Source of the DNA: Antedon mediterranea
Taxonomy: Eukaryota; Echinodermata; Crinoidea; Comatulida; Antedonidae
Length of the DNA stretch: 64,000 nt
Direction: 5' to 3'
NCBI RefSeq assembly: GCF_964355755.1
Contig: NC_092678.1
Coordinates: 23,230,365-23,294,364, forward strand
Shown: one piece after another, positions 4,201 to 34,800 of the stretch
Position numbering within the stretch: position 1 is the stretch's first letter
Layout: each line of letters starts with the position of its first letter
Translations under genes and position numbers: made by a program
The notes under the pieces: model-generated
The model's input: the letters and a program-made list of their open reading frames with translations, nothing else
Database searches by the model: none
What the model was told of the DNA's origin: nothing

Positions 4201-4802
4201 TTGTACTAAAAGCATTTACAGAAGACATGAAACAGTATGCCTGGAGTCTTGCCATGTTTTTACCAAAATTGGTGAGTAAAATAAATTTAAAAATTTGGAC
4301 ATAACGGACAGAAAACCTATAAAGAAACCCACTAAACTCACCTAATATGTTTCATTCCTTAGGAGCCTTGGGTAGCTCCTGGTATTGACGATATACCAGC
4401 TTTAGTTCGTATAGTAAGTCGTGGACCGGTCAACAACCCCCGGTCAGACATAAGTTCAATGGAATTATTTGGGGTAAGTTTTATAGGTCAGCAATTAATT
4501 CATAAACAAACATACTACTAATTGTGAAAAAACTATAATCATTCATTCATTTTTTTTTCTAGGCTTCAAATGTTAACATAGACCCTTTCAATGTAATACA
4601 ATATATCGAAGACTCTGTAAGAAAACGAAGCGTGATAAAACTTAAGAAAGAAAATGAACAAACAAAAGAAGAATTAAAAGAAGAATTAAAAGATTTAGAA
4701 AAAGAAAATTTAGAAAAGAAACCAGAAGATGTACAAAAAATAGAAAGTCAAGAAAAAAGTAAAGAACTACGAGAAATAAATTTAGTAAACGAGAATAAAT
4801 AA
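1250..4802 (+). CDS. Membrane-anchored GalT-like / HIT-superfamily protein
   Basis: Eleven exons join in frame to 505 aa: 1250-1423, 1512-1618, 1716-1854, 1962-2122, 2609-2776, 3162-3292, 3640-3722, 3965-4086, 4190-4271, 4363-4473, 4563-4802. I start at 1250 because a likely splice acceptor lies just upstream; an in-frame ATG at 1211 is the alternative. Residues 10-30 form a signal-anchor helix after a basic N-terminus (type II topology). The rest matches the layout of galactose-1-phosphate uridylyltransferase-like proteins: NPLRAKRP at 157-164, a CxxC pair at Cys187/Cys190 followed by a TFGRI segment, and a histidine-triad-type HTHAQ at 280-284. A second half contains RGPVNNPRSDISSMELFG. The C-terminus is highly charged (Lys/Glu-rich, probably coiled). 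The substrate is unknown. An AATAAA overlaps the stop codon. The fold assignment is motif-based; enzymatic activity is inference. Confidence 0.82.
2904..3069. mobile_element. Fold-back MITE, family M1 (copy 1)
   Basis: Both ends carry the inverted pair GTCTACACTATCAAACTTTA / AGTTTGATAGTGTAGACAGA. The interior GTGATGTGCCCATATATGGA is also palindromic with CCATATTTGGGCACATCAC, so the whole element folds into one hairpin. No coding capacity. It is in intron 5 of the GalT-like gene. Confidence 0.88.
3735..3885. mobile_element. Short TIR element (MITE-like) in intron 7
   Basis: The ends, CCCTTTTCACATTATGTAGAAA on the left and its imperfect reverse complement ending at about 3884, are inverted and enclose two related ACACTTGGGTTCACACT-like segments. 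It lies inside an intron of the GalT-like gene. No coding capacity. Confidence 0.5.
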
Positions 4803-7804: not shown

Positions 7805-10800
7805 CTGAAAAAACAAACAATTTAATTAACAATCAATTTTTAATTGTTTAAATTTTAATTTAAGAAATGATTTTTTATTTTACAATTTTTAGTCACATGG
7901 AATAGAAATCTTGTATTATGTATGGGGTTTAGTTAGTGGCCTTGGTTTAGCCATAGCTAGCCAAAGAAAAAATCTGTACAGTGACTATGTCTGGATTTGA
8001 ACCTACCACCCATGTACAGTATGGATACGCAACCAGGTTTTAGTGCCACTATATTTTAAACAAGAACAACTTCTAAAGGAATTTATAAACAAAAGTAAAC
8101 AAATAAAACAAGTAATACTAAAAAAAAAATATATAAAAAAACAAATTGTAGAGAGAACATACCCAATTTAAAATTTTAACTAATTAAAGTCCTGTCTACA
8201 CTATCAAACTTTATTTATTAAAAAAAATGTGATGTGCACATCTATGGACATGATGTCATATCATTAGCATATTTAAGCATATCACCACTATATTTGGGCA
8301 CATCACACTTTTTTTGTCAAACTAGTTTGATAGTGAAGACAGGGCTTTAGGATTATAAAAAGACAATGTCATGCAGGAATATTTAAAACTCATGCAGCAA
8401 AAACAACAATTATTTTAAACCAAGTTCAACAATACAACAGTATCAGAAATTAAGCAGCTCAATATGTAATGTTGTAGACATTAAAGGTAAAACATGTTAA
8501 CATCAGTATCTTAAATATCTTATTGATATTTGTATATCAAACATATAACATACATTTTGTTTTTTTTTTTTATTCTAGAATACATAAATGCAAAATTGTA
8601 TTGTGTGTTTAGAGACATTTTAAGTTTCTTTAAAATATGATGACAGCTACCAGGCTACTGCTATTTACCCCTATGATATTTTAATTTTAATTTTATTCAA
8701 TTCACAACCAATAAAAACCCCACTAATAGGCTGAGATACACAAAACAAATAACACAATAAACATTAAACTTAAACTTTTACAATTTTAGATCTAAAAATG
8801 GAGAAATTATTTTTTTAAATATATCAATGATATGATATGATATAGATTAGGCAACATGGTAGCACATGCAACACATTTTCCTAGATTTTCTTTTAATAAA
8901 CTTTGGAAGGAAAATTAAGGTGTCAGTCATGCTAGTTTTACCAATTAATAAAAACATAAATATTTTGACATGCTGCTAAATTAAATGAGTAGTTCAAGCA
9001 AGCACAACTACTTCAAATGTTGAAAATAAACTGAACATTGAAAAACAAAAAAAAAAAGAACGTAAACTGGTTGAGTTGAGATGGATGATGATGGACCTAC
9101 TTTGATTTAGCTGGTAGGAAGTAGTTTATTCTGCATTGATGAAAATTCCAGGTCCTATGATTACATGAATGTGTCGGGAGGAAAAAAGGGTTAACAATTG
9201 TAAAAACGCAATCAAAATTAACTGAAAACCTAAATATAAAATAAGGCATTTTGTATAAACTCAAAATAAAGCTGGGATTTATCTTTCATAACAAATATAT
9301 AATTTAACAGACATGGGATAAGTATGATTTTCAGGCAAAATAAAAAAATAATTAAAAAAAAATGAAATAACAATGAGGTATTTTAATTTTATTTAATATG
9401 GTGATGGGTCACTGAAGAAATTTTGTATTATGAATTATATGAACAGAAAAAGAATGAAAATGAAAGGAAGAAAAGGCTAGATAACTAAAGGAAGAAATAG
9501 TCAGTGCATCTCTTTTTTATTTTCTACTCTTGATATTCTATTTGATAACTGTCACTGGTTGGTTCCCATTTTAGACAAATAAAGTTGATAAGAAAAAAGA
9601 GAGGGAAATGGAAGAAAGAAAGAAAGAAAGAAGAAAGGAAAAAAAGAAGACAAAAGATAGAAATAAAGAAAGCAAAAAAGACTAAAAGAAAAAAAAGAAA
9701 AAAGATACAGACAAAAAAAAAGAAAGAAAGAAAGAAAGAAGGAGAGAGAATAAAGAGACTTCTATTTTAATATTTTCTTAGAGTGACTCACCTTGTCTGA
9801 AGAGTTGCTGCTGCCAAGTGATTTCAACTTGCTAAAGAAAGACGTTGATTTGCCATCCTCAAAGATGATGTTGTCTTCCTCCTCGTCCTCTCCAATAGCG
9901 CATGTTTCTGCCGCGGGTAATTCTCCAGAGGCAGAAGCAACCAGCTTTTGATACTTGTATTCAAGTCTGATAAGACAAACAATTAAAAAATGAATACTTT
10001 AAACAACTAGTGCCAAGGGGCAGACTGTTTCGGCCGCAGATAATTCCCCAGAGGCAGGAGCAACCAGCTTTTGATACTTGTATTCAAGTCTGATAAGACA
10101 AACAATTAGAAAATGAATACTTCAAACAACTAGTGCCATTATAAAGCGGCAGACTGTTTCTGCCGCAGATAATTCCCCAGAGGCAGAAGCAACCAGCTTT
10201 ATAAGTAAGGAGGCAGTTTTTATTGCAAGGAGGCAGATTGCGTTCAAAATAGATTATGCGCTTCCTTTATGATAGGTAGGCATATACATCACAATGTCCA
10301 CACACAACAATCATTAGGGTATCAAAATTACTAGAAATGTACTGGGAAGGTTTCAACTACACTATCAAAATTAATGTGACCAAAAACAAATGATGTGCCC
10401 ATATATGAACATGATGATTTCATATCACTACCTTATTTTGGCATATCACTACGATATTTGGGCACATCACATTTTTTTGGTCAAACTAGTTTGATAGTGT
10501 AGACAGAGCTTCAAACATTTGAAACTCGTCCTGTGGTGGGTAACTCATCTAATCATTATGTCAGTTCATATAGGACTTTAAGGTTATATTACTTACGTTT
10601 TATTCTGCTTCCAGACAACGACTACAATTACTATAAGTACAAGGAGTGAGAACACGAAGCCTGCGATAGCAAGTTGGCCATACCATGGTATCATACTACA
10701 AACACTGGTGATAGGCTCTGGTAGTGGAACTCCATCACGACACACTCTACAAATAAACAGTAGGGAGCAAATTAATTCAACCAATATTAATATTTATTCA

Positions 10801-13800
10801 ATTAAACTTTATTAACCACAGAGGCCCAGGTCAACACATACTAATAAAATTTCAACAATGTTTTTACAATATTACGTACCGTGTATAAAAATATATTTAA
10901 AAGTTTTAATAAAGTCCATGTTTGAATGATGTTAGGGTCATAGACGAGCACAACTTTATATGCAAGGCTATGTTTTATATATTCAGTCTTAGGTAAATGC
11001 AGAGAAACATTTAAGTGACTATGCCTAGGGTTGAATGTATTATTAATTATGATAGGCTAGTGGATTGGGGTAGAGACAATTTTTCATGAAAAAAATGATT
11101 TACATGTAGATGTTTTTTCTGATTCCTACCTTGTACTATTCCATACATATTGTTTCACCTGCTTGCCTGCGGAGCATTCACCCTTGATTGCGTAATAATC
11201 ATCTTCCATACATTCTGGGCAAGCAGCGGCCGTCATCCACAGGAAATGGAATGTGCACCCGTCACACGTGCCACCTGGACACTTTTCGGGAAGGTGCAGA
11301 ACACCACGACCATCTGCATTCTTATCGCACCTCAAAATAAGTTCGGTTGAACGGCCATTTTTGCATGCTTTTGTGGATCTATAGGCAATATGAATGTAAT
11401 AAGATATGATAATGTACTAGTTCATGCTATAGGCCTACTAAACACACATTCAATTCAATTCAATTTTATAATGTAAGATACATCAATTGTGTAATATGAG
11501 TTTTTTGTTTGTTTTTTAAGTAGAATGCACTTATGCTGGAGAAACTTAAATAATCCCAGAGGGCTTTAAGGCTAGTTCCACAAGAAAAAAATAATTCAAA
11601 ATTTGTTATAGAGAGAGTAGTACTGTATGACATAATGGTAAGGAGTATCAGACTGTGGGAGGCATGGGTTCAATAGTTTACTTTAACTGCCTCGTCCTAA
11701 GGGTGGGACATAAAGCTGTTGGGTAATATGTATATACATTGCATATGTGGACAATACAGAACTTGGTACATTTTAATATCCTATTCAAAAGAAGTCTCAC
11801 ACTGAGATGGGTCCTGGACTAGGTCATGGACCAAGTCCTGGACTGGGTCATGAACCAAGTCCTGGACTGGGTCATGGACCAAGTCCTGGACTGGGTCATG
11901 GACCAAGTCCTGGACTGGGTCATGGACCAAGTCCTGGACTGGGTCATGGACCAAGTCCTGGACTGGGTCATGGACCAAGTCCTGTACTGGGTCCTGGACT
12001 AGGTCATGGACCAAGTCCTGGACTGGGTCATGGACCAAGTCCTGTACTGGGTCCTGGACTAGGTCATGGACCAAGTCCTGGACTAGGTCATGGATCGGGT
12101 CCTCATGGAGAAAAGTCTTGTTACACAGTATAAATCGAAAAATAAATTCAAAACAAAATTATTCTTTACTCACTCAGATGAATGGAAGTAAAACTTGAGG
12201 TCTGGGATGTCATAGGGACTTTCTGGGAACACAGACTTAGTGATACCTGCTAAACCCATAGCATCATTTAGACCAATCAGCTGATCACCAATGCTGAAAA
12301 GAAATGGTAAAATATAAACATCCTGTTCTACTATTTTATCCTAGGTCCCCTTCGTTATACGACACTCCATGTGGCTGTGCATCAATCCATATACGCATAG
12401 CAACATGAAAACGAAACATTTGATTTGATTTCCCGGCACCGGACCAAAACAATGCCAGAACAGGTGTTAAAGACCCTTTAGTCCCAGAGGGAAGTTGTAG
12501 GCTAAATTAGGATTATACCCAAACATTGGATTTATACTTATATGATAATAAAACTATGCTTCTACCTGACAGGCTGGGCAGACAGTGTTGCCTCGTTTTC
12601 CCCTGTAGGGGATGGGATAATGGTTGAACGGCAGATCAGCGATTTTACATCATCGTCGAAGTCCTCAGTTTTCTGGAAAATATACAAAAGATATTTAAAT
12701 ATACAGTAATATGATTGTTTGAGCATTAACTCCCAATATTAGTGCTTCCTGGTTTGGGAGTGCTTCCGGGTTTGGGAGTGCTTCCGGGTTTGGGAGTGCT
12801 TCCGGGTTTGGGAGAGTTTCTGGTTTTGGGATAGTTTCCGGGTTTGGGAGAGTTCCTGTGTCTGAAACCGGGAAAGTTGACTAACCTCTGAATGAATAGT
12901 AACATTGTTTTTACACAACGCTGTGCCAACTCCATTATTTCCACACAGACTGATGTTAAATAAAGAATTGAATCTGGTACCCTTAGCTGAGAAACTTGCA
13001 CCAGACAACACGGAATGGAAACTAAAAAGAAATTCAAATTAAAAACATTTTCTGTTAAATCGTAATGAGTGAGAAAAATTGGTGTCCTCTAAATCTTTGT
13101 CTACACTATCAAACTAGTTTAACAAAAAAGTGTGATGTGCCCAAATATGGTAGTGATATGCTCAAATATGGTAGTGATATGACATCATTATGTCCATATA
13201 TGGATACCCCACATCAAGTTTGATAGTATAGACAGCTTAATAAAGGTTCTACTGAATTTCAGTTATTTTTTTTATCAAGCATTTTGACTTACCCATTCAA
13301 ACTTGTTAGATCATAGTGTTTGTAATCGTACACCAAATGGCAGTCAGCGTAGCAGACAGAGTTCTTGTAAGTCTTCAGGCCCTCACCACATGGGATGCAA
13401 GACTCTTCACCATATGGGTGAGCATTCTGTAAATATGTATCTTAAAACAAAAGAAACAAATATATTTAAATATCATAACCTAACATTCTTGAAATTATGA
13501 AAAGATAAATTTATTTAATTGTATTTTGACTTGATTTTCTTGCCTACATTTACTCCAGAAGACAGTTTTTAAGGTGATATTATAACCTTCTTTAAATTAT
13601 GACATAATAAATGTTACTGCTTGAAGGGTTGCATGGTGTATACAGTACCGTACCTAGCATTACTCCAGACGACAGGTTTAAAGGCATCTATTATCATCCT
13701 TAAGCTTAACTACTATACTGAAACATTTTAAACCTTGCTTATTTCCCTTGGAAACACGTGGTGTTACAAACTTTACTTTACTAATAATATCTACTAAAGC

Positions 13801-16800
13801 TCTGTCTACACTACCAAACTAGTGTAATGTGCCCAAATATGGTAGTGATATAACAACATCATGTCCATATATGGGCACATCACATTTTGTTGTCACATAA
13901 AATTTCATAGTGTAGACAGAGCTTTACTATTGAACATTAACTTCTGTCCTAGAAGGCAATATGTGCAAATGTTAATTTATTGAACAGACAATATTCTGGG
14001 ATGCCATTGACCTTGAATGAGAAATATAAAAAAAAAAAAAAGTGGATCTATTATTATAATAATAACTATCAAAAATAAACAAATAAATTTTTAAATAATT
14101 GTGAAATAAATGGTCAAAAGCGTTGATTATCTAGGCACCTGGATGACTTGCTACTTTCCTTATCCTAGCAGATTAAATGGTCACCTTTATCAAGGTAACA
14201 GGGATAATACTATTGAGGCTTTACTTTCCTGTAAAATGGGAATTTAATCCAATTGGGAAGGCGGGATGACCTTAGGGAACTTGTTTTCCCACACTCACCT
14301 TATCTTGTTTTTTTCAGTTATTTATTTAAAAAAAAGTATATTGAGCTATAGATCCGTGTTACTATAAAATATTATTTTTATTCATTGCTTATATTGGGTG
14401 ACCTCTTCAGTCAGGTTGTAATAAGAAATGGACATATAAATTTAGCGCAATTTTTTAGATACTATACTTGCACTACGTCATTATTTATTATACATTATAT
14501 AACACCTAAATTTGATTGGACGAATGTGGGTCACATGGCACGCATTAGTACACACTATTAAATGATCGTTTCATAGTACCTTTTTTCATTACCTACTTCT
14601 ACATACTCTGAACTAAGGAATGGACAGACAGACAGGTGTACTTACTTGGAGGGCACTGCTCACACTTGTTAGTTTTGTTTGAAATGTAATATCCTTCTGG
14701 GCATGGGATGCAGCTATAGCAGCGTGTAAAATAGATTAGGATGTTAGACATGCAATAGTATTATGTGTTCCCACACAGCAACCTGTATGCATTTGCGTTG
14801 AGTGCAGTGTATGTTATATGCATTGGCCGAATGCATACATGTTGCTCTTGTTTTTTTTACATTTATTTTATTCAATTTCCAGGTAAACAGAATAATTAAA
14901 CAAAACATAAAATAAACACAAATTATCTCTCATGCCAAGTGAAATTTGTCTGAAAAGTTTAGCTCATTAATAGGGAGTTTTTTAGATTTTGTAGATACCT
15001 AGAACCCCTAGATACTTCAGTAGTTTTACATCATTGGAATTCATTGTACATTGATTGAGGTTTTTTCCTCACTTGCTTTAATAGTTAACAGTTATGGTAG
15101 ATTATAGAAGCAACAGAACAAATGGAAGGTCATAGGTCATCGGACGCTCCATAACAGCAGCATAGCACAGCAGTGCGTTCACACTCACACCAAAACTGTT
15201 AAAATGCGGCACTTCTACAAACAAATGCATAAAGTTTTCACTGACCTAAAAAAAACTGTGCATGCATTCTTGGGAACTTGTTCATATAAAGTGCTGTAGG
15301 ACAGTTTTATATAACACATGCACATTCAGGATATAATAAAGCCACAATCATGCTTTTGTCTTTACAATTTAAACTAATTACTAAATTTGTATCAAGAATC
15401 TTGCAACATTGCATACTTTATTATTGCTTAATACAATTTTCAGAAAATAACGGATAAATCAATAACATATGCATAAATGCTTCAAGTGAAAAAGATTTAA
15501 CCAAATTTGATTTTATTTAAAATTTAACAAATACGATAAAAACAGTATAATTTTCATTACAGACAGAATAATACAAAATCTATACCATAACATTATACAA
15601 TGCAATTTAGTACTATCTTGCAATAAATAGCATTCCATAGCATGCACTATTGGCATTGTCTACATTATATTGCATGGTGCATTGCTATCATTCTATATAC
15701 TACAAACACAAAGCTGTTCTAATTAATAAACTTACCCCTCCATATCACTACCTACAGGACAAGCCTTGCAGTACGATGCTCCCCCATCTACTGTATTTTT
15801 GACCTCGATACTGTAAATAATCGCCCTACCAAAAAGAACAATTTAGAAAAACAAAGTCACATATAGAGTGTATTGCATAGCTTATTCAGCAGCGACAGGT
15901 AATGTTATAAGTTATTTGCACTATCAAACTTTATGTAGCAAAAAAGTGTGATGTGCCCATATATGGACATAATGATGTCATATTACTACCATATTTGTGC
16001 ACATCACACTTTTTTGTCAAACTAGTTTGATAGTGTAGACAGAGCTTTAAATACAATACGTACATGTCATTGCGGTATTTTGAACCAGCGATGTCGGAGT
16101 TGTCGTAATCTGCTTTCTGGAACGCCCACGTAAACCTTCTTTCACTCTGTTGGTTTACAGAATATCTGAAAAAAAACAACACAAAAAGATTATTTATTAA
16201 TTAGATTAAGCAATGAACAATATTAATGATTTTAATAATAATTCATTATTATAAAATATAAAAAAAATTACACAAAATAGTGTACAGAGAGAGATAAAAA
16301 TAAATAATAATATTTAAGATTTTATACAATAACAATAGGTGATCCTTTTATTCTAAATGATCACCTAATAAATCAGTTTTGAAAACACATACAGTGGATC
16401 TGTTTAACTTTTACCAGACTACATAATATAGTACATATTTTAAATATGCAAATTGAATTGAAGATGTATGATGGATAGGCCAGCAATATGTTTACCAATT
16501 ACCATTAGTTTATATACGCATGTTTAAAATGTTTTAAAATTCCATAATGTAATAACAATTTTTTTTTTTTGTATATCTCAGAGTAAACATAATTTCTATG
16601 TATATTTTATATGCAAATGACAATAAACGAAAGTAATTTTCCACTGATGAATGAATGTATTGATAAATAAAGAAAGCATGTTAATCTATATCAGAGGAAG
16701 TCATATATTCAATTGGTAATAGCTACCTGGAAAAAAATAGAAGTTGTAATCTGATAAAGACAGTAATCTAGCAACACTAACCAAGGATTCTAACAGTGAT

Positions 16801-19800
16801 AAACATATTGTTATTACTTCCTATATTTAAGTTATTAAATTAAAAAATATTATGCTTTACTGCTTTTTGAACAAAATGCTAAAAGTCCATTTCACAAATA
16901 TTCATTTATAAGAATAGATTATTGGTATTAGTCCATTTAAAATATTTTTTTTAATGTACACCAAAAAAGAAATTTCAATTTAAATTCCCCAACATGTAAA
17001 TATTACCTAATATGATGCTAAATATTTACCTGTAAGCATAATGGAACATTCTAATAAACTTATGCTCCTCCCCTTTAAGACAATTATCCAATCAGGAATG
17101 AGATCTTAATTTTGTATGTTTACTCCACACCAAGACATAGGTAACAGTAAACTGTGATTGCATGGGGTGAACAACGGTTATACTTTGGCTCCAGTAACCC
17201 CAAAATATATTTATTATTCTAATATTGGTCTATCAATATTTTAAAACATTTACTAAAGGTAAGATTATATTTATTATATTTTTATTGATAAAATCATAGT
17301 GGTAAGAATAATAAGAGAAAAATTCTTTCAAAAATTCTGAATCTATACCAGAAAATTTATCTCTAGATATTTAACTTATTCGGTCTTTTTAAACAAAAAT
17401 TTATGATGTTTTTTTTTACACTTTGGCTCTTCGTAGTCTTTCAACTGTGAATATATTTTTCATAAAAAAAGTTTTAAAAATTAATATTTCAATATATATG
17501 CATGTAAAAAACCTAGAAGAATAAAGCTACACTATCAAACTTTATGTGACCAAAAAATGTGATGTGCCCTATATGGACATGATGATGTCATATCACTACC
17601 GTATTTGGGCACATCACTACCATATTTGGGCCCATCTCATTTTTTTGTCACATAAAGTTTCAGTGTAGACAGAGCTTTAGATAAATTCTAGAGTGGATAA
17701 ACACAGTAGAATCTGTCTAGGGTGCACAAAATAATTGTATTCTCTCCTTTGAAATGAATGAGGAACCATAATGTTTTAACTTTTAAATAGGTCAACTCTT
17801 ATTCAGGGGACACCCCTACTAAAGGGAGACTTGTTGGGTCCCAAAGGTGTCCCTTAAAGAGGTTCTACCGTAATTTAGAAAATGTTACGTTCATGTTCAT
17901 GAAATACTATACATTGTATGTGTTATCATTAATGTCCTTTTACAAAATAAAGTTTCTACAAATAGATTTTGTTGAAGCTCTGGTTTGAAAGTATTTATGT
18001 AGAATTCTAACTCTAGGAGGTGAAATCATATTTCTAATGTATGCTTAATTATATTAAAAAGTATGTTTGTAGTTAGTGTTATAAGTTCTATACAATACAA
18101 GTAAGTACACCCCATTTATAAAATACAGTTAACACTAACATTTTATCCCAAAACATCCCAAACATTTGGTAAATAATATTCATCAACACAAACATTTATC
18201 GCAATATAAAAATAAAAACAATAAAATTATTTTTTTTTTACAACTATACAGATAAAATTGTATCATCAGGAAAACAATTTTGTATAGATAAAATTTAGTA
18301 TTAATTCTTAAAAAACATCTACATATTCTTAACTTGCATTATTACATTAAAAATGAACAAAATAGTTGGGCAAGGAAACATCGTAACAGAACTATATGAA
18401 AATGAGGTTTTCAAGTTGAAATTATTTTTGGTATTAGACACGTTTCTCATACATGGTATAGTGCAGACCTACTCTGATCACATGACAACATGAAAGTAGC
18501 ACCGAATGGCAGACTAACACTGCCCTCATTGGTACCATTGCAGGTTGCTCGATCATTCAACCATGAAAACATACATCCAACTAATTATCTGCAACATTCT
18601 GCTAGCTGTCCAAACGCACGCACAAGCATCTTGCTCGTCTTGTTGTGAACCGGGTACGGTTGGATTACCAGGGCCTGATGGGATACCTGGTGTAGAAGGA
18701 CCGGGTGGAATACCTGGACGTCCTGGTAAACACGGTATGCACGGTTATTCAGGCGAAAAAGGAGACAGAGGATTGGTTGGTGAACTAGGTGTGACTGGTA
18801 CAAAAGGCAGCAAAGGATACTTAGGGCCGCCAGGGCCAGATGGGGTGTGGCACGGCGATAACGGAGAAGCTGGCGATATTGGTAACACAGGACATGAAGG
18901 CCCTCTTGGTAATCGTGGCGACATAGGGAACAAAGGTCACAATGGACGTACAGGTGACGATGGCCCACCAGGGCATCCAAGGGCGTTAAACCCATCTTCA
19001 TTTTACGCAATATTTGATGGGGCGGGAGTCTGGGCTTCAACTGACAATTTTGTAGTACCATTTAATCTAGTAATGGAAAATGAAGGTGATGATTACTCGC
19101 GTCACAATGGAAAATACACAGCGCCCTCTAACGGAACCTATTTCTTTTCAACTACGGTGTACAAGAGAATTCCACAGCTGCAAGTTAGCATACAAATATT
19201 TGAGTATACTACGAAGGTTCAACGAGTCATCGCTTATTTGAAAATGGATAGCGAAGAACTGAAGGATTCGTCAACGTTGCACGCCCTCTTACATCTCGTT
19301 AAAGGAGATCAAGTGTTCATAACAATCTCGCGCGAACAGGCTCTCCTGACCGATACGAGGCGACAGACTAGTTTCATGGGATATTTGTTGATGGACGATT
19401 ACTAGAGGCCTTCAGCAAACCAGCAGACTGCAAACAAAAACTAATAACACAATCAATCTATTTATATACCAGTAAACAAAATGTAAACAAAAGTTATGAA
19501 CTATCTATCTATTTGTGATTGATTCAAAATACATTTCTTGGAATCATTTTTGTCATATTTATAAATTAGAAAGAAATTTCAGTATATTTTAAATTTCAAT
19601 AAAATAAGATAAATGATTTATTATCCCATAAAAACATTAAAAATAATGATGAATAAAAAATCCAATTTTGAATTACGGTATGGTAATGTTATGTTATTCA
19701 CTTTTTTCCCCTCCCCCAACAAAAAAAAAATTAATAAATTAATATAAAAAAAAATATATATGACAATAAATGGCCTATTCATCAACCATTTTTTTAGGGT

Positions 19801-22800
19801 GACAATATATTATATGAACTGAACACACTAAATAAAATAAAACTGTACATATTAAATCCTCAACACTGTAATAATTAATTTTTTCTGCAATTATTGGTTT
19901 TTTTGTATGTTCTAATATTATTTGAATTTGGGTATTGTAGTTGTACCGTCAAAATAACAAAATAGCTTTCAAATAATTTTATGATAAAATAATCAAAAGA
20001 AGCCATTTTAAATGCTGATTTTTCCATTTTTTTCTAAACTAAAATATATGAAATGCTTTTGGTAAAATAAATATGCGGCAAGGTACACAGTCTTGTTTGT
20101 ATTTCTTATGGTGAATTCATGAAAACAATAATAGAAAGAGAATGGTAAGATCCAATATGGATCATCTAGTATGGTACTCTACCATGCCAACCATACCAAC
20201 AATAAAGTAATTTGTATAAAGGAAAATTTGTATAATATAATAATATAACATGTTACTAATAATGTGGGGTAGACACTAACACAAACTCCCTTGCTACTTA
20301 CTACTTTGCAGGCCGATGCCGCAAAATATGAATGCAGTCCGAATAATTCTGAGCTTCCTACTCGCTCAACAAACACTAGCACAAGAAGCCTGCATTGCCT
20401 GCTGTCTCAAGGGGGCTACTGGACCACCTGGTATTTCCGGTTTCACAGGGACACCAGGAAAACCTGGCTTGCCCGCAATACATGGAATACCTGGATTTAT
20501 CGGCCCACCTGGCTTGAAAGGGGAACAAGGATTGATAGGTGACATAGGAGTAGTTGGAGAAAAAGGCGAGAAAGGTCCGAGTGGATTATCTGGCCCGGAA
20601 GGACGCTGGGATGGTGATAAAGGAGACATAGGAGAAGAAGGAGATCAAGGAAATGAAGGGAATAAAGGAAATAAAGGTTTTAGTAGCAGTAAAGGAAAGA
20701 AAGGGAATCAAGGAAGCACAGGAGACATTGGAAAGTCTCGCGTCAGCAAACCAACCTCTTTCTTTGCTGGGTATTCTGGAAGGGAAATTAAAGCCGCTGA
20801 AAATCTAATAATTGTATTTAATCTAGACTACTTCAACACAGGCAATGATTATGATCGTTCTAATGGTAAATATACCGCCCCCGTTTCGGGAACATACTTC
20901 TTCTCTACTTCCATCAGCCAAAGGGAAACGATTTTCCAATCCACGTCACTTGTAAAGCTAAGTACTTCACAAATAAAAACCTATCTTGCTACTCACTATA
21001 TGTCCAATGACGATGAAATGGATTCGATCACCCTAAGTGTTATATATCATTTAGATAAAGGTGAAAGTGTGTATGTAGAACTTACTCAAGGTTCAAGTAT
21101 AAACATTGGTGAATCAAGAATAATGACAAGTACGTTTACAGGTTACTTGATTATGGATGATTAAAATGTGCTCTTTATGTTGCAGTAGATTCACGTACAG
21201 TATCAAGTCTAGCGACATTAAACATCCTGCTGTGTCTTGTCTGCTGACAGCAACAGGTCCAAACCATACCTCCTATATACTAACTTAACCTACTGTAAAC
21301 CTCTAAATAATTTCTCTATATTATTTATTCACCAATCACACTTGTGAGATATTTCTCTTAAATAGTAAAAGTATTTTCTTTAAATTACATTGGATTTTTG
21401 AAATTTAAGGGTAAGTGTTTCCCTTTGTGAACTGTGAATACGGCCACAGTATCCCACATGGGATTAACGTTATTGTAAGACGACACGATGCTGTGGGATG
21501 TTTAAAGTCTCTAGGTGTGATACTGCTCATTATATTTTGTAAAGTATATTCATAAAAAAAGTACAAAGATAATAATAACAATTTACAAAGAATATAGATC
21601 TAAATTCAGTACAATTTAACAAAATGTTTCAGTAAAATGTGCATGCTACATTGCTAGCTGAAGTGTCTCAAACTCTCACTCGCTGGGTAGGCAACATTTT
21701 TCGGCAAATGCTACAAAATACCTACTGTATGCTATTATCAGATTGAGTAACACAAAAACATAAAACTGTGTTCCCTACTCCAAATACAAATTAATGAGCA
21801 GGTATAATGTATAAAACTAGTACGTACAGATTGGCAGGGGAAAAAGTGGGAGGAGAAGGGGATGGAGAAATTGTAACAAATTGCATAGTAATAATTGAAT
21901 AATATTTTGTAACTTTTAAACTATATAATGTGAAATCGATACATTTTCATTCTGATGAGTATAATAAAATGATGTCTATGTTTGGCATGATTGAATTACT
22001 AATTAGAAACACAGGATTTTAATTAAAATATATTCATTAGTAAAGTGAGTTAAGATTCTCTTATTTATTGTACCATAATTGTTGACAAAATAATGATTGA
22101 TAAAAATAAATACATTTTGTATTCTACTTGAAAAGAGAACGATCACCAGGTTATCAATGTTCTTCAATCTTTCTGCAGATGGCGGCACATCGCGGCATCT
22201 CTTTACTCGTCATCTTCCTCCTGTTCCTTCAGACAACCGCACAAGAGATTCAAGAAGTGATGACCTTTCCGCATTGCCCAGTTTGCTGCGAAAGAGGAGA
22301 CCCTGGTAGTCCTGGAAACCAGGGTTTACCTGGAAGCCAAGGAGTGCCTGGAGCTCCTGGAATTCACGGATTGCATGGTGAACCAGGGGCAAAAGGTGAA
22401 GTTGGCAGCATGGGATTTAAAGGTCGAAAAGGCGAAAGAGGCCCGAAAGGAGAAAGAGGGGAAATTGGCATACCAACAGCTGGTGGTGTGAATCTGAAAG
22501 GTGATCCTGGACAAAAAGGTGCAAAAGGCGAGATAGGAACAAGAGGAAGTGAGGGGCGTTCTGGCGATCAAGGAGTTCAAGGGTCAAAAGGAAGTAAAGG
22601 TCAGAAAGGTAAAAAAGGACCTAGCGCTGTCACTCCAGTTCCAGCATTCTTTGTAAAACAAACGCAAAATTTTGTAGCCCAACAAGAGCAATTGTTCATC
22701 TTTGATGAACGAATTGCTAAACGATCTATAGACGAGAAAAATCTGACGGAAGAATCAACAATAAGCAGGCAAAAACGACAATTCGTTGACGTAGACGGTC

Positions 22801-25800
22801 CAATTTTATTAAATCCTGGTGGTAGGAGGTTATCAAACGTGATTCCATTTGACACGGTCATAGTCAACGAAGAAAATGGCTGGAAAGAGAAAGACTACAT
22901 CTTTGAAGCTCCCTCAGATGGAACGTATTTATTTAGTTTTACCATTTACAAATTAGCTACTTCGAAGTATGTTGCAGCACTTTTGTACAAAAATTTTGAA
23001 GTCCTGGCCGCTACGGAAGATCAAGGTACGTCATCCGATTCGGCAACAATGACCGCTGTTGTGGATTTGCGTAAATCAGAGTTTGTATGGCTTCAGTTGG
23101 CATATCCTGGAACACTGCTTGGAAATGGCAATACTTTCTTCTCCGGACTCAAAATTCATTAAATTTTATTTTTATTATTCAAATTTTGTTTATAGCTGGA
23201 ACAAATAATTATAAATGTAAAATGAATTGTTATGACTATAAAACCATATTTCTTATTATTCACATAAATTGAATTTTTTTAATGTGAAATTACATTTTTC
23301 CAATGTACTAATTAAAATATCAAATCTATAAACTTCAGATGCTAAATGATATTCTTTGAACAGTTGAAAAATGTTTTAAAAAATTATTTAAAATAACTAT
23401 TGATAGTTATTAACTAACTGGTATAAGATCACATAATTAAAATACAGGGATACTGAAGAAGAAAAAGATAACAGAATTACTGATGCCATAACTAATAGTA
23501 TAGTAATTAGTATAGTATAATTAATAAATTATAATATTAAAGAAACAAAACCAAGGTTGAATAAATTGGGTATCAAATGATTACAATGTTGGTATTGTTC
23601 TTTACAACAGTCTACAAAAATAATGTATGATGTAACAAATTGTAAGAATCATCACCACTTTGAAATGCTTAAATGTACAGCTACTACTACAATACAAGAT
23701 ATAAACAAATCCTCAGACATCATTTCATGTTCATCTTTTTTAGCATTCAACAGAGCTTATGAGAAATGAGCGACACGTACTGGTGCTGCCTTCTCCTCTT
23801 CTTTGCCATATTTATCGTCAACTATCCTGGCGGACAAGGTCGTGACGTTGACACTTCAGGTTGCTTCCGATGTTGCTACAAAGGAGAACCAGGAATCAGT
23901 GGACAACGAGGACCTACAGGCCCACCTGGCACCATGGGATATAGTGGATACCCAGGCATAGACGGACAAAATGGAATACAAGGAGAAAACGGATTGACTG
24001 GCATGAAAGGAGAATTAGGAGATGTCGGAGTAAAAGGTTACAGAGGCGATACCGGATACCCTGGACATGGTTTCGGAATAAAAGGCGAGTCTGGTGGTAA
24101 AGGTGCGAAAGGTACTTTTGGTATACCGGGAACACCTGGTCCAAAAGGACCTCAAGGTTTGAAAGGAACAAAAGGAGACAAAGGTAGTCAAGGCGATATG
24201 GGAGACCCAGCATTATCAACGAGATGTTTCTTTTCCATGCAACTTAATAAAGGAATAATCAACACCGACAATACGCAAATTACAGTCATATATGACCGTG
24301 TTTATACCAACGAAGGTGACAACATGAATGCTGTTACTGGTATATTCACTGCACCTGTGAATGGTATCTACCATTTTGTGTCTACGATTTACCGACAAAT
24401 TGGTATTGATGATTTTGGAGTTTTCCTAAAGAAAAATCTAGAAGACGTCATATTGATGAGCGGAGGGAATGAGAATAGCACGGACACAACGAGCGCTTCG
24501 GTTATACTGCCGTTAAACGTGGATGATATCATTTATCTCACGGTTAAAGAAAACACTCAATTAATACTATCTGAGGGTGAAGGAATCATGTTTAGCGGGT
24601 ATATAATTTCAAGTACATAGACAAATTGATATGCTGAACTTTTTATGTCAAAATACTGGAAAATGTAAATTAGAACTAATGATCACATTGTTTAAACAAT
24701 TATATTTTGAGTACTATTACTAATTCAATTACAAATGATAAATAAAATGTAAAATGTTATTCAACATTAAAAACAAAAATAAAATATGTGCACAGGAAAA
24801 TTGAAACAAAATGCTTTCATCAACTAGAATAAAAATTATGTTTTAAAAATCGTAAAAATAATATCAAATGTAAATGTGGATCGAGTTAACAATAGTTAAT
24901 AAACAAAAAAAGTAATTTAATACAAAGAATTTAAATATTTAAATTGTTATCAGATTTGAGTAATCCTTAATTTTGTGTACGATTGAAACTTAAAATAGCT
25001 TTTTATATTCAATGATACTATTCAATCCTTTATATTCAGTACTGTATCAATATTATTTTCTTTCATCAAAATGTTACTATTTACTTCAATGCACAGTGTC
25101 AATGGAATTTAACAGAACTGTATACACACAATGACTTCTGTTTATTATTGATCATATCATCAACATAGTTTTCCTCGTATGGTATTAGCAGTTTTTTCAA
25201 ATTACTTTTTTCCAGTTAACAACAAAAGATGCAAAAGATGATAACGGAAAAGTGTATGCCCATGCTCCATGACACGTTCACATGCATCACAGTATTGTTA
25301 CTTGTTTCTTCGATCGTTAACAGTCAGGCGCCACCAACGGTACAACCGGGAGATGTAGAAAGCTTAAAAAACACACCAGCCTGTCATGCTTGCTGCGTCA
25401 AAGGAAGGAAAGGGATTCGTGGACTGATGGGTCACCCTGGAGTCGAAGGTCAGCCCGGTTACGAAGGAATTGAAGGAACCAATGGTCTGGAAGGAATCCA
25501 CGGACCACAGGGCAGCAGAGGTCAAAAAGGAGATGCGGGCGATATCGGAGAGAAAGGTACAATCGGAGATATTGGTCCACGTGGACCTGGGGTTGGTGAA
25601 AAAGGAGAAAAGGGATTACCGGGTGATAAAGGGTACATAGGCTTTACAGGGATTAAAGGACCACCAGGACCAATAGGATCATCAGCTTTTGCTGGAGATG
25701 AAGGTCAGAAAGGTCAAAAAGGATCTGCAGAACAACCAACCAGAGTCTTCTTTTCAGCTCGTCAAAATAGTCGCCAGACGTACGGTCCAATAAATAACTT

Positions 25801-28800
25801 GATCGTCACGTATAACATACTGCATAGAAACGAAGGAAGCGATATGAACAAAGATACTGGCAAATTCAAAGCGCCAACGAACGGATTATACTTCTTTGCC
25901 GCCACTGTGTTCAAAACCCAAACCATCACAAACTTTCAGGTGTACATGAGGGCTGGGGGAGCTAACATAGCTGAAATGGTCGGTACAACGAACGATAATG
26001 ATGATTCCTGTAGTGCCACTGTTGTGGTGCGCTTAAGTAAGAATGACGAGGTATATCTGTTAGTGCAAACAGGAACAATCAAGTCAACCAACATACTTAA
26101 AGAAGCACTCTTCTGTGGATATCTGATAGTGTAAGCAATGCTCCTGCATTTAATAACATTTAGTTAACCTACACGATTGAGACTATACATATACTTATAA
26201 ACTCATCAATTAATCATTTATAAATTATAATTTGTAGTATGCCACAAATTCAAGATGGTTAGTCAGATGGTCTCTAAATTTGAATGTCATGATATTTTAG
26301 AATAAATAATAAAGTTTCTTTGGTGGGCTACTCTAAAAAGAATACATACATGGAAAAAAAAATGTATCTATGTCAGTTACTAAATAAGATAACAGTATGA
26401 AAATGATGACCATGATGAAAATGATAACAATTATGACAATGATGAAAATGATAACAATTATGACAATGATGAAAATGATAACAATTATGACAATGATGAA
26501 AATGATAACAATTATGACAATGATGAAAATGATAACAATTATGACAATGATAACAATTATGACAACGATGATAATGACAATGAAAATAACAATCAGGATA
26601 ATGATGACGACAATTATGACAATGACGACAATTATGACAATGACGACAATTATGACAATGACGACAATTATGACAATGACGACAATTATGACAATGACGA
26701 CAATTATGACAATGATAACAATTATGACAATGATAACAATTATGACAATGACAACAATTATGACAATGACGACAATTATGACAATGATAACAATTATGAC
26801 AATGACAACAATTATGACAATGATAACAATTATGACAATGATAACAATTATGACAATGACAACAATTATGACAATGATAACAATTATGACAATGATAACA
26901 ATTATGACAATGACAACAATTATGACAATGACGACAATTATGACAATGACGACAATTATGACAATGACGACAATTATGACAATGACAACAATTATGACAA
27001 TGACAACAATTATGACAATGACGACAATTATGACAATGATAACAATTATGACAATGACAACAATTATGACAATGATAACAATTATGACAATGATAACAAT
27101 TATGACAATGACAACAATTATGACAATGACAACAATTATGACAATGACAACAATTATGACAATGATAACAATTATGACAATAATGACAATAATGATAACA
27201 ATTATGACAATGACAACAATTATGACAATGACAACAATTATGACAATGACAACAATTATGACAATGACGACAATTATGACAATGATAACAATTATGACAA
27301 TGACAACAATTATGACAATGACAACAATTATGACAATGATAACAATTATGACAATGACAACAATTATGACAATGACGACAATTATGACAATGACGACAAT
27401 TATGACAATGACAACAATTATGACAATGACAACAATTATGACAATGACAACAATTATGACAATGACAACAATTATGACAATGATAACAATTATGACAATG
27501 ATAACAATTATGACAATGACAACAATTATGACAATGATAACAATTATGACAATAATGACAATAATGATAACAATTATGACAATGATGATCATGTGATAAA
27601 TGTAGTGATGGTCACCCAATCAATAATGATCAAATCAATGATGACAATTTCATAAGATATGAAATGATGCTGATTACAACAGATAATGATGACAACCAAA
27701 TGATAATTGATGATGATAACGCTGATAATGATGATAAGATCAACAATGATAACCTGGACAATGAAGACAATGACAACATTATTATCAAATTACTACTTAC
27801 ATGTATGTTGTGCGATTCTGAGCGCCTTCCCATGATTCAATTACGGTCGACTTGTAATCTTCCTCGAGAAAAAACAACAAACAATCTCCAACGCACTGTA
27901 ATTCAAATTCGAACTTCACAGTCCCAACTTCAATGGCGCCCCCATTAAAGTAGCCCTCTTTTGAACGGAATCCAGCCGTTGAGACACTAAGTACAAGGTA
28001 TACGTCGTCCGAGTGACCTTGTCCACTGTGTATGTGATTGCCAGATAGAGCCCATCCATCATCAGTAGCACAACCATTTCCTAGTGAGGTGAATTAAAAT
28101 TAATTATTATATTTAAGCAAAGACTATGATAGCCTACAATGTAGAGGGCGTTTTAACCTTTTGGTTTAAAACAAACAAGGCAGCTGCACTTACTGTATAC
28201 TCTTATATAATCTTAGGCTAACAATGTAGAGGGCGCTATTGCCTTTTTGTCTAAAACAGACACAAGCATACACTTACTTACTACCTCTCTATTTTACGCT
28301 AACAATGTAGAGGACGCTATCACCTCCTCATTTAAAACATAGGGAACATCACGTATATCCGAAGCTAACAAAGTAGAGGGGGCTATCATATTACTCATTT
28401 AAACATAGGAGCATCACATAATATCTGTATCTTATACTAACAAAGTAGAGGGGGCTATCATATTACTCATTTAAACATAGGAGCATCACATAATATCTGT
28501 ATCTTATGCTAACAAAGTAGAGGGGGCTATCATATTACTCATTTTAAACATAGGGAGCATCATGTAAAATATCTGTATCTCATACTAACAACATAGACAA
28601 TAGAACAATAATTCAGTCTAGTTATTTAATTAATAAGCAACTAGAGGAAAATGTTTAAATGACATTGACACAAAATGGAAGCTGTATATTTGCCTGATGT
28701 TAGTTACCATAACAACACTTACCGTACATGCTCAGACAGGTTGCCTCCATATTTGGAGGCATGTAGTTCCAGGATGTGAAAGACATGCCATACTCGGGTG

Positions 28801-31800
28801 CAGTGGAGCCCTCGCATTTTTTGCACTCTGAAACAAAACATAAACAATAAAAAAATAAAATAAAATGATACATATTCACACCCTCTATTATTACAAATTT
28901 TTGACATATTTCAAAGCTTAGTAATTCCCAATATAGAGGGCGCTGTCTCTGATCTACTACCTAAATATTTTTATAGGCTTCGAATCAACGCAATATCGGC
29001 AATTTTTACAGATAAACTTCAAAACAAAATTATAAAAAATGCACTTGTTGCAGTGGAGTTCACACATTAAGCTCTGTATAAACTTATCAAAATTTATGTG
29101 ACAAAAAAATGTGCTGTGCCCAAATATGGAAATGATGATGTCATACCACTATCATATTTGGGCACATCACACATTGTTTGTCAAACTAGCTTGATAGTGT
29201 AGACAAAGCTTAAGTTAGTACCATTTATTCCATTGGAGTAGTAGTTCCTGGGACAAAAATTGCAGGTAGAACTGTTGACAAAGGTCATTCCGGGATTACA
29301 TGGGGGGCAGTCAATTTCACCACTATCGGATGGCAGCTGAGTAGCTCCTGTTATGTCACTCCTGCAAATCTTTGGTTGAATCCACTTGTAAACTGTTTTT
29401 GTCTGTAGAAAGAAAAAAGAAAAAGTTTCCATTACTAAATAAAACTATACAGAGAAAACACATGGGACCCATATGAGAGCATATATGGGTACCATTAAGG
29501 GTTTCCCATGGGATTCCACTATTTTTGCACCCAAGAACCATATGGGTCCCACATGGGAAGGCCCACATAGCCCATATATAACCCACATGGGGCCCTTCAA
29601 AGCATATGGGCATCGTATTTTGTTGCCCATATAGGATTCTTCTTGTTTTGACACATGGGTAATACTGTATCTATATATAAATTTACGTAAGGGCAAAATT
29701 CGGTAAATCGCGCGTTACTTCTAGAATGTTTACTCGATGGTATATAAAGTTGGTTCGTACTTTCTGTACTGATTTTAACCACCTGATGTAACCCTGTTTA
29801 CTAATTAAGACGATTAAAACAAATTTAGGTTCAACGATTTGCCCCAAATAGGGGTGTTTTCCGATCGTGGTATACACTGTCTAATGGATGTCAATTTGAA
29901 AAATACCCGCACACAATAATACGAGGACACTTCGCATTTTCCTATCTCCTCCTACGATAATTGTTTTTAATAGGTGAAAACCGGTTGAACAGTTCGAGTA
30001 CAGCATCATAATGTTGAAGACAGGCCGATTTTCTTTAAAAAATGCTATTTTGATACATGTAATATACGTTTTTACAAATGCATTGATTTGTGATGAATGG
30101 AACATTCCAAATTATTTGGTTTAACCATACAGGTATAGATTTAGATTTATGGGCCCCCTTGGAGAATAAACATAAATAGTATTGCAATGCTGTACAATAC
30201 TGTTAAGGTATTAACCACTTTTGATCGCAATTTGAATCGCAAATTTCTTACTGTGTGAGTGTTGGTACTGTTAGATATAATATAAACAAATATACAAATA
30301 AACTTTATTACTGTGAGTGTGGGTAGGCCTTACTGTTAGATTATAAACATATAATATACAAATAAATAAACGTTATTACTGACAGTTGCTTCTCAACGTT
30401 TGTATTAATTAATAATTTTAAAATATATAAACGTCGTAGTGGTGTATCGTTACATGTACTTTACTATTTCAATCGACTATGACAGCGAGAGTTTTAACAA
30501 AGTATTAAATCGTAAATGTTTTACTGTATTTAGTGGTATATTATTTATAGGCCTATAAAACATTAAAAACAATATTTCGTTACTGAGTGGATAAGAATAT
30601 ATTTTAAAATGTTTCCTCTTTGTACCTATCTTCTTCCCCCATCCCTCAACCCTTAGGCCTAATGTTACATACAAAACACAAATTGGGTTTGTTTAAATGA
30701 GTCCAAATAAAAAAATGTGACTCATTTTGTTTCTCTCTCGAAAGTAATTCCCAGGGTGCTAACTTTGGTTGACTACATAAATCATTGTGTATATTTATTC
30801 GTTTCTGTAAACGACAATGTATTATAGTCCTGCAGTACGTACATTTGAAATCTCCATTTTTTTCTCGCTGGAAATACTGTGTATTCGAGAACCATCTGTG
30901 GGCACGACCTAGATGGTACGCGAGCGAAGCGAGCGTATAGTCATAGGGAACAAATTAGGGAGGGGGGATTATAAGTGGAATGCATTAACAATGGATTTAA
31001 GGGGGTGCAAATATACTTTATTATTATATTTTATTTATATATTATTATCTCAGTCTTATATGGTAATAAATAATCATAAAAATTCTAAAATTGTATGTTG
31101 GCATTACCTTGCTTTGAGCATTACATGGCGCTTTAGTTTGAAAATAATCATCTTGTTTGCAAGCCTGCCTAACTGTACAGTTACTAGAGCCTGCATGTGA
31201 ATAGTGAGTGTCTGGGCAAGCAGTACATGACGTCGCACCTGCAGCTGAAAATGAGTTTGCACTACACACCAAACAACTGTAAAATAAGCACACAAGGTTA
31301 AGACCTACTAGATAGTGATTATGTTCGCTTTTTAGGAATCCTGTCTCTGCCTGGTTTTGTGTGATGTTTTCTTGTTGTTGAAAATTGATTATATTGATAA
31401 AGGAGAATTTGAAAACATGGATACAGGTATCTAAACAATAACATTGATAATGAACTAATCTGCTTTAACCGAAATTAACCAATAGAATGTCAAGGATAAT
31501 ATTTGGTGTATTACATAATCTGTAATAGCTTGCTACTATGGATCATTCACATGCAATTGGCTTAGTCAAAATTGACATTTTTTTTATATAAAGTGCCTTG
31601 TTATTCAATGTAGAATGATGTAGGTGTATATATATATTATCAAAAATTAGTGGTAATAAATATTAAAAACATGTATTCTTTGTTTTGTTTTTTTGAGTTT
31701 TAAGTCATGGTAGTGGGTATATTTTGTGTTTTAAGTCATGGTAGTGGGTATATTTTGTGTTTTAAGTCATGGTAGTGGGTATATTTTGTGTTTTAAGTCA

Positions 31801-34800
31801 TGGTAGTGGGTATATTTTGTGTTTTAAGTCATGGTAGTGGGTATATTTTGTGTTTTAAGTCATGGTAGTGGGTATATTTTGTGTTTTAAGTCATGGTAGT
31901 GGGTATATTTTGTGTTTTAAGTCATGGTAGTGGGAATATTTTGTGTTTTAAGTCATGGTAGTGGGAATATTTTGTGTTTTAAGTCATGGTAGTGGGTATA
32001 TATATCCTTTTTTTAATTGTTGTCATTAAAAAAAAATACCAGACTGTTATAGTTTATAGTCGTAGATTTGACACATTTATTTGTAGTGTAAGTTTTAAGA
32101 ACTTTTTAAAATTGTTTGTTGTTTTATTAATATGTAATGTATAATGATAGAATCATAATCAATTGTTGGTATACAAAATGTGTAAAGCTATATCCACACT
32201 ATCAAACTAGTTTGACAAAAATGTGATGTGCCCAAATATGGTAGTAATATGACATCATCATGTCCATATATGGGCACAAAAAGTTTGATAGTGTAGACAA
32301 ACTTTAATCAGGAATAAGGAATGATTGTTTACAATTAAAAGCTGAGTGATATAATCAATAAATGCTAATTTTAATGTCAACCTTCCCCCTAAAAACCATA
32401 TGGCAAATAAGATTAAATTTGTATTCAATGTATTTGGGGTAAATTAAAATGAAGTCGAGTATTAATTGATGTTTTTTCAATAATGTTGGTATAATGGGAA
32501 GAGGAGGTATGGGAGGGGGAGTAATTGATGTTTTTTAAAATAATGTTGGGAAGGGGAGGGACCAGTGTTAGCAGTGGTTACTTACTCTGTAGAGCCAGAT
32601 GTATCGGAGTAAGTTCCACTTGGGCAGTCTGTACATTGAGATGTGTAACTTAAGCCGTTGATCTCAATGAGTTTGATACGAATTGGTGACGTCTTGGTGG
32701 AATCTTCAAAATTCATTCCAATCGCTTTCCATGATATTACGTTCATTCCCATGCTCAGATCGATCTATTGGATTAAACAACAATTAAATAATTTGAAAAT
32801 ATTTCAAGCCAAAATAATTTTAACCAGATTGGATAAAATACTAAATTAAAAATACACAAAATATGGCTGAAGTTCTCAAAATATGGACGGACAGCCAGAC
32901 AGACACAGTAAGAACCAAAAGGAAGGGTGTTCCCAAGCTAGTCCTTATTGACTCTGCATTATCCCTGCATTATACTTTGTGTATGCATACTGTACATCTC
33001 AATGTTTGGTAGACTTAAGCTCTGTCTACACTATCAAATTTTATGTGACAACAAATGTGATGTGCCCATATATGGACATGATAATGTCATATCACTACCA
33101 TATTTTGGCATATCACTACCATATTTGGGCATATCAAATTTCTTTTGTCAAACTAGTTTGAGAGTGTAGACAGAGCTTTAGTCTACCAAACTTTAAAGCA
33201 GGAGCAGAAGAATACTGTATATTTAATATGGCTTACCTTTATTTCTTTCCATTGACCTTCGCCGGTGGCATCAGGCCAGCGGTCAATTCCATGTCCAGTC
33301 TCTTGACACTGGTCATTGGAAATCTATAACATATAAATATACGAATATAAACATATGATTTAAAAACAAACAATTTATATCGCATTGGCCAAGAGAAAGA
33401 TACTTGAAAGATTCGAACTGGGTATTCTGGATGCTAAACTAATGTGCCACTTCTCTCTCAGATAAAATTGTGAATAAAACAAAACAATTCTTAAGCTCTG
33501 TCTACACTATCAAAAGAGTATGACAAAAAAAAGTGTGATGTGCTCTAATATGGTAGTGATATGCCCAAATATGGTAGTGATATGCCCAAATATGGTAGTG
33601 ATATGACATCATCATGTCCATATATGGGCACATCACATTTTTTTGTCACAAGTTTGATAGTGTACTCAGAGCTTCAGAATAACATTTAATAAGCACTTAC
33701 TCTAACATGGAATATTGTATCTTCCTCAGCATAGGAATAAATAAATTTCACATAACCAGCTTTCTTTAAATTGGCGCTGTATACGAGAGATACCTGGCAG
33801 TCATTACCAGGAGACGAGATGAATCCATTGCGAGGCACCCACGCAGACCTACAACAGTAATAAAGTATACAGTTGGTCATATTTAATCAACTGCACTAAA
33901 GTGAGATGTTTCCATTAAATATTAAGTATTTTACTTAAGTTGGTAAATATTTAAGGATTTTGATTTAGAAAAGGGAATGTTAAGAGCAAGTATTTCCGTT
34001 TAAGAATGATAACAGTTGCGACATAAATTGAGGAGAATTCCACAGTTTCTGATACTGGTTCAGATAGAGACATACTGTAGAGACATCTGTTAGCCATTGA
34101 CATCCATTTAGCATTTATATTAAATGCTACTAAAGCGTAAAAAAATATTTTTTGGCTAAGCTTCAACAAACGCTATTAAGTAGACACCTAAAGACCCAAG
34201 AAAGTTTCCCTTTAATAGGAAATACACATCCAATGTTACTCATTAGGGGCTGGCCCTTGTTTCAAGGGAAAGTGTCCTTCAATCGAGATAGTCACAAAGG
34301 AGGGGAAGTGGGTGCGGTGGTACACTAAAGCTCTGTTTACACTATCAAACTTTATGTGACAAAACAATGTGATGTGCCCATATGAACTCAATGATGTCAT
34401 ATCACTACCATATTCGGGTACATCACTGCCATATTTGGGCACATCGCAGATTTTTTGTCAGTGTAAACAGAGCTTTATACTTACTCGTTGCAATTTGACC
34501 TGCTTTCCATGTACATTTCATCCACTTTCTCCGACAATGACAGGAATTCTTGGGGCATCTTGTTCCAATTCTCAAACCGTTGTCCTCCTCCCAGAGAATA
34601 CTTGCCAGCAGCACAATTTAAACAAGTTTGTGAGTTCTGGACATCAAGATACTGACCAGCTTCACATGTAAAACCTATAAATATAAATCTCTTATTATTA
34701 TGAACACTTCTGAATTTTATTCTATTTATTTTAGAGTTCTTTCAACTTCAATATTCAACAAATGTATAGAATTACTGAACAATTTTAAACAATACAAATA

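Follow-up and report, generated by a model that had tools for sequence, protein, structure and literature searches.

Results

The window analysed here, a stretch of 64,000 nucleotides devoid of N (C9:23230365-23294364), belongs to a genome that was searched over 354 Mb and 18 contigs. It carries an ELAPOR gene, one intron of which contains five genes encoding collagen-C1q proteins (W1 to W5) on the opposite strand (Table 1).

Table 1. Features of the ELAPOR locus (positions in the window)
Feature	Position	Strand	Remarks
ELAPOR host gene	9762..41577	-	20 coding exons, 1021 aa; splice model, Pfam and genome search
ELAPOR exon 11	16064..16165	-	splice model
ELAPOR intron 10	16166..27800	-	phase 2, 11,635 bp; splice model
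W1 candidate 3′ splice site	AG 18542..18543	+	19 nt upstream of ATG
W1 collagen-C1q gene	18563..19405	+	280 aa
W2 candidate 3′ splice site	exon start 20312	+	
W2 collagen-C1q gene	20316..21164	+	282 aa
W3 candidate 3′ splice site	exon start 22179	+	
W3 collagen-C1q gene	22179..23162	+	327 aa; insert between stalk and head
W4 candidate 3′ splice site	exon start 23754	+	
W4 collagen-C1q gene	23766..24620	+	284 aa
W5 candidate 3′ splice site	exon start 25216	+	weak
W5 collagen-C1q gene	25229..26134	+	301 aa
18-bp tandem array	26396..27588	.	66 copies; between cluster and ELAPOR exon 10
ELAPOR exon 10	27801..28080	-	splice model

The ELAPOR model, obtained by an exon search that was built on protein anchors picked by hand from the ORF lists and demanded splice sites, an open frame and compatible phases, runs from an ATG at 41577 to a stop ending at 9762. 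Among its 19 donors, 18 score at least 1.0 and one scores -2.6. Pfam recognizes the ELAPOR-specific domains PF23032, PF23091, PF23031, PF23087 and PF23089 in this order, each above its cut-off, and all the ELAPOR matches returned from the genome (20 of 20) lie at the present locus, with a tool that may miss weak matches. A previous sequence-only reading of the window had proposed that exons 10 and 11 splice in phase over the cluster, and this search retrieved both exons at exactly the same coordinates. The total of 21 exons given by that reading has to be corrected to 20 coding exons, which leaves the position of intron 10 unchanged. This intron has the donor CAT/GTAAGTAG and the acceptor GTTTTTTTTCAG/ATA (termini GTAAGTAG...TTTTTTTTCAG), and is much longer than the 18 remaining ones (11,635 bp versus 213-4,525 bp, median 633). 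GBD_ELAPOR1 (PF23031) matches aa 452-613 of the protein as a single stretch (positions 3-164 of the 165 of the profile). According to the exon lengths of the model, the junction between exons 10 and 11 corresponds to aa 564, within this match, so that one domain is encoded on either side of intron 10.

Within this intron of the gene model, W1 to W5 are five separate coding units, each consisting of a single uninterrupted frame that begins with a hydrophobic segment. All five encode a collagen domain (PF01391, E 2e-15 to 2.4e-16) and a C1q domain (PF00386, E 2.7e-15 to 8.2e-19), which bears out the earlier proposal of five complete C1q-like genes in intron 10 on the strand opposite to ELAPOR. 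They fit the layout of collagen-containing C1qDC proteins, i.e., a signal peptide (called from a hydropathy window and by eye), a collagen tract and a C-terminal C1q domain. In a comparison of W4 alone with PDB sequences, an adiponectin chain outscored the C1q chains. The insert of W3 bears, at 22767-22781, an RQKR-Q motif that resembles a furin site, and the head of W3 might therefore be cut loose.

Other elements were observed in the window. The host intron contains a MITE-like element (17532-17665) with ends CTATCAAACTTTATGTGAC; matches to this type of end number 13 in the window versus 0.05 expected, two of them being the ends of one copy inside the intron. The 18-bp array is open in several frames and occupies about one tenth of the intron. 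A short-period repeat at 11777-12158, within another stretch of ELAPOR intron sequence, generates open frames with repeated GLGHGPSP or VMDQVLDW (ORF list). The last ELAPOR coding exon is accompanied by partial tandem copies in intron 19 (9892-10200; 57 nt in three copies with spacings of 123 and 129, and 113 nt in two copies 94% identical), which are possible alternative tails or decaying duplicates. Open frames at 1447-4301 (+) are possibly exons of another gene; none of the ten open frames submitted to Pfam, at 1.4-4.3 kb (n = 8) and near 42-43 kb (n = 2), gave a match.

The search returned 86 C1q matches in the genome, 81 of which lie outside the nest. The idea that the whole recognition-protein family is embedded in ELAPOR therefore does not hold. 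We examined 68 of them (63 outside and the five nested), the 18 others being partial or stop-bearing, and 48 of the 68 rows have a CxxC motif, a stalk and a head in one open frame. The 10-kb pieces L035 and L036 were considered for their C1q genes. With a limit of 50 kb, 67 rows (L035c omitted) fall into 23 groups, 11 of which include at least two genes. Of these 11 clusters, the nested one shows the lowest median identity between heads (25%, range 22-37%), compared to 29% for a pair at C9:21.24 Mb, 47% for a pair at C5:16.19 Mb and medians of 71-96% for the eight others. Such low identities indicate that the nested cluster is old. The best identities of the nested heads with outside genes (27-31%) are about as deep as those found within the cluster; for W3, the best values are 26% within the nest and 27% with the outside gene L003. 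The arrays at C3:3.86-4.08 Mb and C5:25.60-25.63 Mb comprise many near-identical members whose number of collagen triplets varies greatly.

The nested stalks, by contrast with these divergent heads, are almost constant. All five proteins carry a CxxCC motif, with the first Gly seven residues after its start, followed by collagen tracts of 109, 109, 110, 109 and 109 residues. Each tract consists of 20-22 triplet-lengths, a register break and 14-15 further triplet-lengths. The break is +1 in four of the genes and +8 in W3; W2 and W5 show in-register Gly losses besides. Tracts were parsed in 48 rows with CxxC before the tract and then in 14 more, leaving aside six rows devoid of collagen tract (L033, L034, L060 and L035a-c). 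In the 43 other motif-bearing rows, tracts range from 51 to 261 residues. The register is broken in a single one of these rows, L008, whose tract counts 107 residues and is interrupted after 16 triplets; in-register Gly losses occur in four (L041, L047, L052 and L059). Two of the 14 further rows, L003 and L058, also have breaks, indicating that kinks are not unique per se, unlike their common position and the common length. None of the 57 other parsed rows combines the tract length and break of the nest, L008 being the nearest; some, for instance L002, L003, L021, L027, L037 and L053, may lack upstream exons since the sequences fetched extend no further than 1,000 bases upstream of the C1q domain.

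Five rows drawn at random never agreed within one residue when taken from the 43 rows (0 of 200,000 draws) and did so once in 200,000 draws from 36 non-redundant rows. Outside the nest, tract lengths agree within one residue in six of nine pairs with head identity of at least 95%, five of 31 at 85-95%, nine of 273 at 70-85%, 15 of 429 at 50-70% and two of 161 below 50%. They agree in all ten nest pairs, at head identities of 22-37%.

In phylogenetic trees, W1 to W5 form one clade with supports of 91/90 (67 rows; below the star level of the tool) and 98/89 (36 rows). The four other genes still group together when W3 is removed from the 36-row set (97/91). These trees omit L035c, and the smaller one also leaves out 29 array rows, selected manually, as well as L035a and L035b. 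Long branches were flagged, that of W3 reaching 3.5-3.7. AU tests rejected one of six alternative groupings at 0.05 (p 0.021; 0.10-0.26 for the others).

Candidate 3′ splice sites are present 0-19 nt before all five nested ATGs, with scores of 0.7 (W5) to 4.8 bits; four reach at least 2 bits, a value attained by 5.7% of the positions of the region. A further 44 motif-bearing rows were considered, which are related and not independent and include L035a, an accidental motif match. In 29 of them, the best AG site precedes an in-frame ATG by exactly 7 nt; such a site reaches at least 2 bits in four rows and is missing in six. The argument for a leader intron thus rests on position more than on strength. 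Taken together, these sites suggest that a spliced leader may be characteristic of the family, so that no processed retrocopy has to be invoked. Such a retrocopy as founder is disfavoured by the candidate sites before the ATGs, with the reservation that these sites are weak in most relatives and in W5.

Upstream of the array genes, the donor TGGGTAAGTA was found in 15 of the 18 cases examined (C3:3.86-4.08, C5:25.60-25.63 and C3:35.1 Mb) by a search of 3 kb (2 kb for one gene), in which 0.003 occurrence is expected per 3 kb. Its conservation in the own upstream regions of these genes suggests that each has its own leader exon. In the nest, donors upstream of W1, W2 and W3 score 6.1, 4.1 and 6.4 bits, values equalled by 54, 73 and 28 of 300 shuffles, respectively, and no donor exceeds -0.3 bits in the upstream region of W4 or -0.8 bits in that of W5. 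A leader donor of the array type was searched for in the host intron and discarded: TTGGGTAAGT and two longer forms have no match on the plus strand of the window, and no place in about 16.17-26.2 kb lies within one mismatch of TGGGTAAGTA.

Discussion

This work revealed a cluster of five related collagen-C1q genes nested in antisense within one intron of ELAPOR, whose near-constant kinked stalk is its most interesting feature. We consider it probable that the cluster is an old antisense nest, in which one or several founders present in ELAPOR intron 10 multiplied in tandem and gave separate units for secreted chains. Before this multiplication, one collagen-C1q gene or a few such genes would have reached the intron, probably by a duplication at the DNA level. 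The sequence-only reading had proposed a single ancestor followed by tandem duplication. The trees and the shared stalk favour this scheme but do not prove it, since the AU tests reject only one of six alternatives. From these comparisons, we infer a common founder for W1 to W5, which is favoured by the common layout of the stalks at such a deep divergence of the heads.

A less likely course is the arrival of a pre-formed cluster, either by the transfer into the intron, as one segment, of at least two C1q genes that had diverged beforehand, or by the formation of ELAPOR around them. Since the divergence inside the nest is about as deep as that separating it from outside genes, the duplications could indeed predate nesting. 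However, the support of the five-gene clade in the trees argues against such an arrival, as does the lack of the tract length and break of the nest in all 57 other parsed rows, even in L008, the nearest one.

The constancy of the stalk could result from ancestry, from constraint or from both, and it suggests, without proving it, that the chains are co-assembling or geometrically constrained. Starting from the proposed tandem multiplication, the nested genes would encode secreted chains with a signal peptide, a CxxCC motif engaged in inter-chain disulphides, a trimeric C1q head and a collagen stalk of some 36 triplets with a single bend at an invariant position. Divergence would have affected the heads, presumably allowing them to bind different ligands, and spared the stalk. 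The chains would probably assemble into bouquet-like oligomers devoted to recognition, perhaps of mixed composition. Secretion, disulphides, oligomers and ligand recognition are predictions drawn from the sequence, as are the splicing and expression of every gene at the locus. More speculatively, and rather improbably in our opinion, the intron could encode matched chains of one kinked, C1q-like recognition complex and correspond, in an invertebrate, to the C1QA/B/C locus; co-assembly would keep the stalk and the heads would provide the specificities. In that case, enclosure in ELAPOR would shield the number of chains from the birth and death that affect free arrays. Should the fixed kinked stalk reflect co-assembly, this would suggest that a non-vertebrate possesses a C1q-like complex made of several chains.

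As for transcription, the ELAPOR pre-mRNA would run in antisense through all five genes before removal of the intron. The candidate acceptors, the putative leaders of the array genes and the donors of W1 to W3 make five independent promoters likely. The locus is very unlikely to contain fewer than five transcription units, with an upstream leader exon spliced to alternative terminal coding exons and a cluster that would act in part like a single gene. The acceptors just before the nested ATGs and the lack of a good donor in the own upstream regions of W4 and W5 would agree with such a shared leader. However, each gene of this family usually seems to have a leader of its own (15 of 18 young-array genes have their own upstream TGGGTAAGTA), W1 to W3 have upstream donors, which 54, 73 and 28 of 300 shuffles equal, and W4 and W5 may simply be devoid of a 5′ intron. 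Finally, an assembly error, or two ELAPOR-like genes flanking the C1q cluster, can be practically dismissed: assemblies may break down in long low-complexity sequences such as the 18-bp array, with no other support found, whereas the in-phase consensus splice, the single domain spanning the junction, the ELAPOR pieces found in order and only here, and the continuity of one 26-Mb contig with a window devoid of N argue against it.

The nest is a clear example of recognition-type genes forming a cluster inside an unrelated gene, and the young C1q arrays of the same genome provide a comparison. It raises the question of whether gene copies are gained and lost more slowly when nested, for which one nested cluster is available here.

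The chains of complement C1q (A, B and C) also associate a C1q head with an interrupted collagen stalk, and these chains of like length co-assemble. Complement C1q differs from the nest by its three chains, compared to five nested genes; C1q heads are among the PDB matches of W4. To our knowledge, the genes of the complement chains are not nested. By analogy, the like lengths of these stalks and the bend of the stalk of mannose-binding lectin give rise to the idea of mixed oligomers. As described in the part of PMC10773719 considered here, the latter protein shares with the nested ones a Cys-rich start and a Gly-X-Y tract with one interruption bending the stalk into a bouquet, but has a C-type lectin head instead of C1q and 19 triplets with a break after the seventh. 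Among crinoids, proteins of the OXYL type have a C1q head, an intronless coding region and several paralogues but, unlike W1 to W5, no collagen stalk (PMC6409975, in the sections used here). The same sections report six C1q genes in a sea cucumber, 14 in a sea urchin and 59 in a sea star, and leave open whether crinoid C1q genes are generally devoid of coding introns.

No description of an ELAPOR-C1q nest was found in the literature searched (open-licence papers only), and the terms "intron" and "gene cluster" do not occur in the part of a review on invertebrate C1q that we consulted (PMC10672478). The sequence-only reading knew of no described arrangement of this type; such arrangements have in fact been reported. 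According to the sections of PMC1891103 considered, one large intron of Flo-2 contains, in four insects, a conserved cluster comprising most of the GMC oxidoreductase genes. As in ELAPOR, paralogues (27-69% identical) are wholly included in one intron of an unrelated gene, almost all in the orientation opposite to the host. Unlike the ELAPOR nest, they encode enzymes, their intron reaches 83.2 kb in the fly and holds one non-GMC gene, and conservation of the homologous intron was demonstrated across four insects, whereas the ELAPOR nest is known from one genome. Likewise, according to the consulted part of PMC3240667, the last CG18675 intron of the fly includes TipE, Teh2, Teh3 and Teh4 together with VhaM9.7-c, an arrangement of four paralogues and one other gene called stable. 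The genes of the TipE family encode channel subunits, and their measured expression is distinct from that of the host, which calls for caution before attributing control of the nested genes to ELAPOR transcription. Overall, the ELAPOR nest is a further case of a known kind, the gene cluster nested within an intron.
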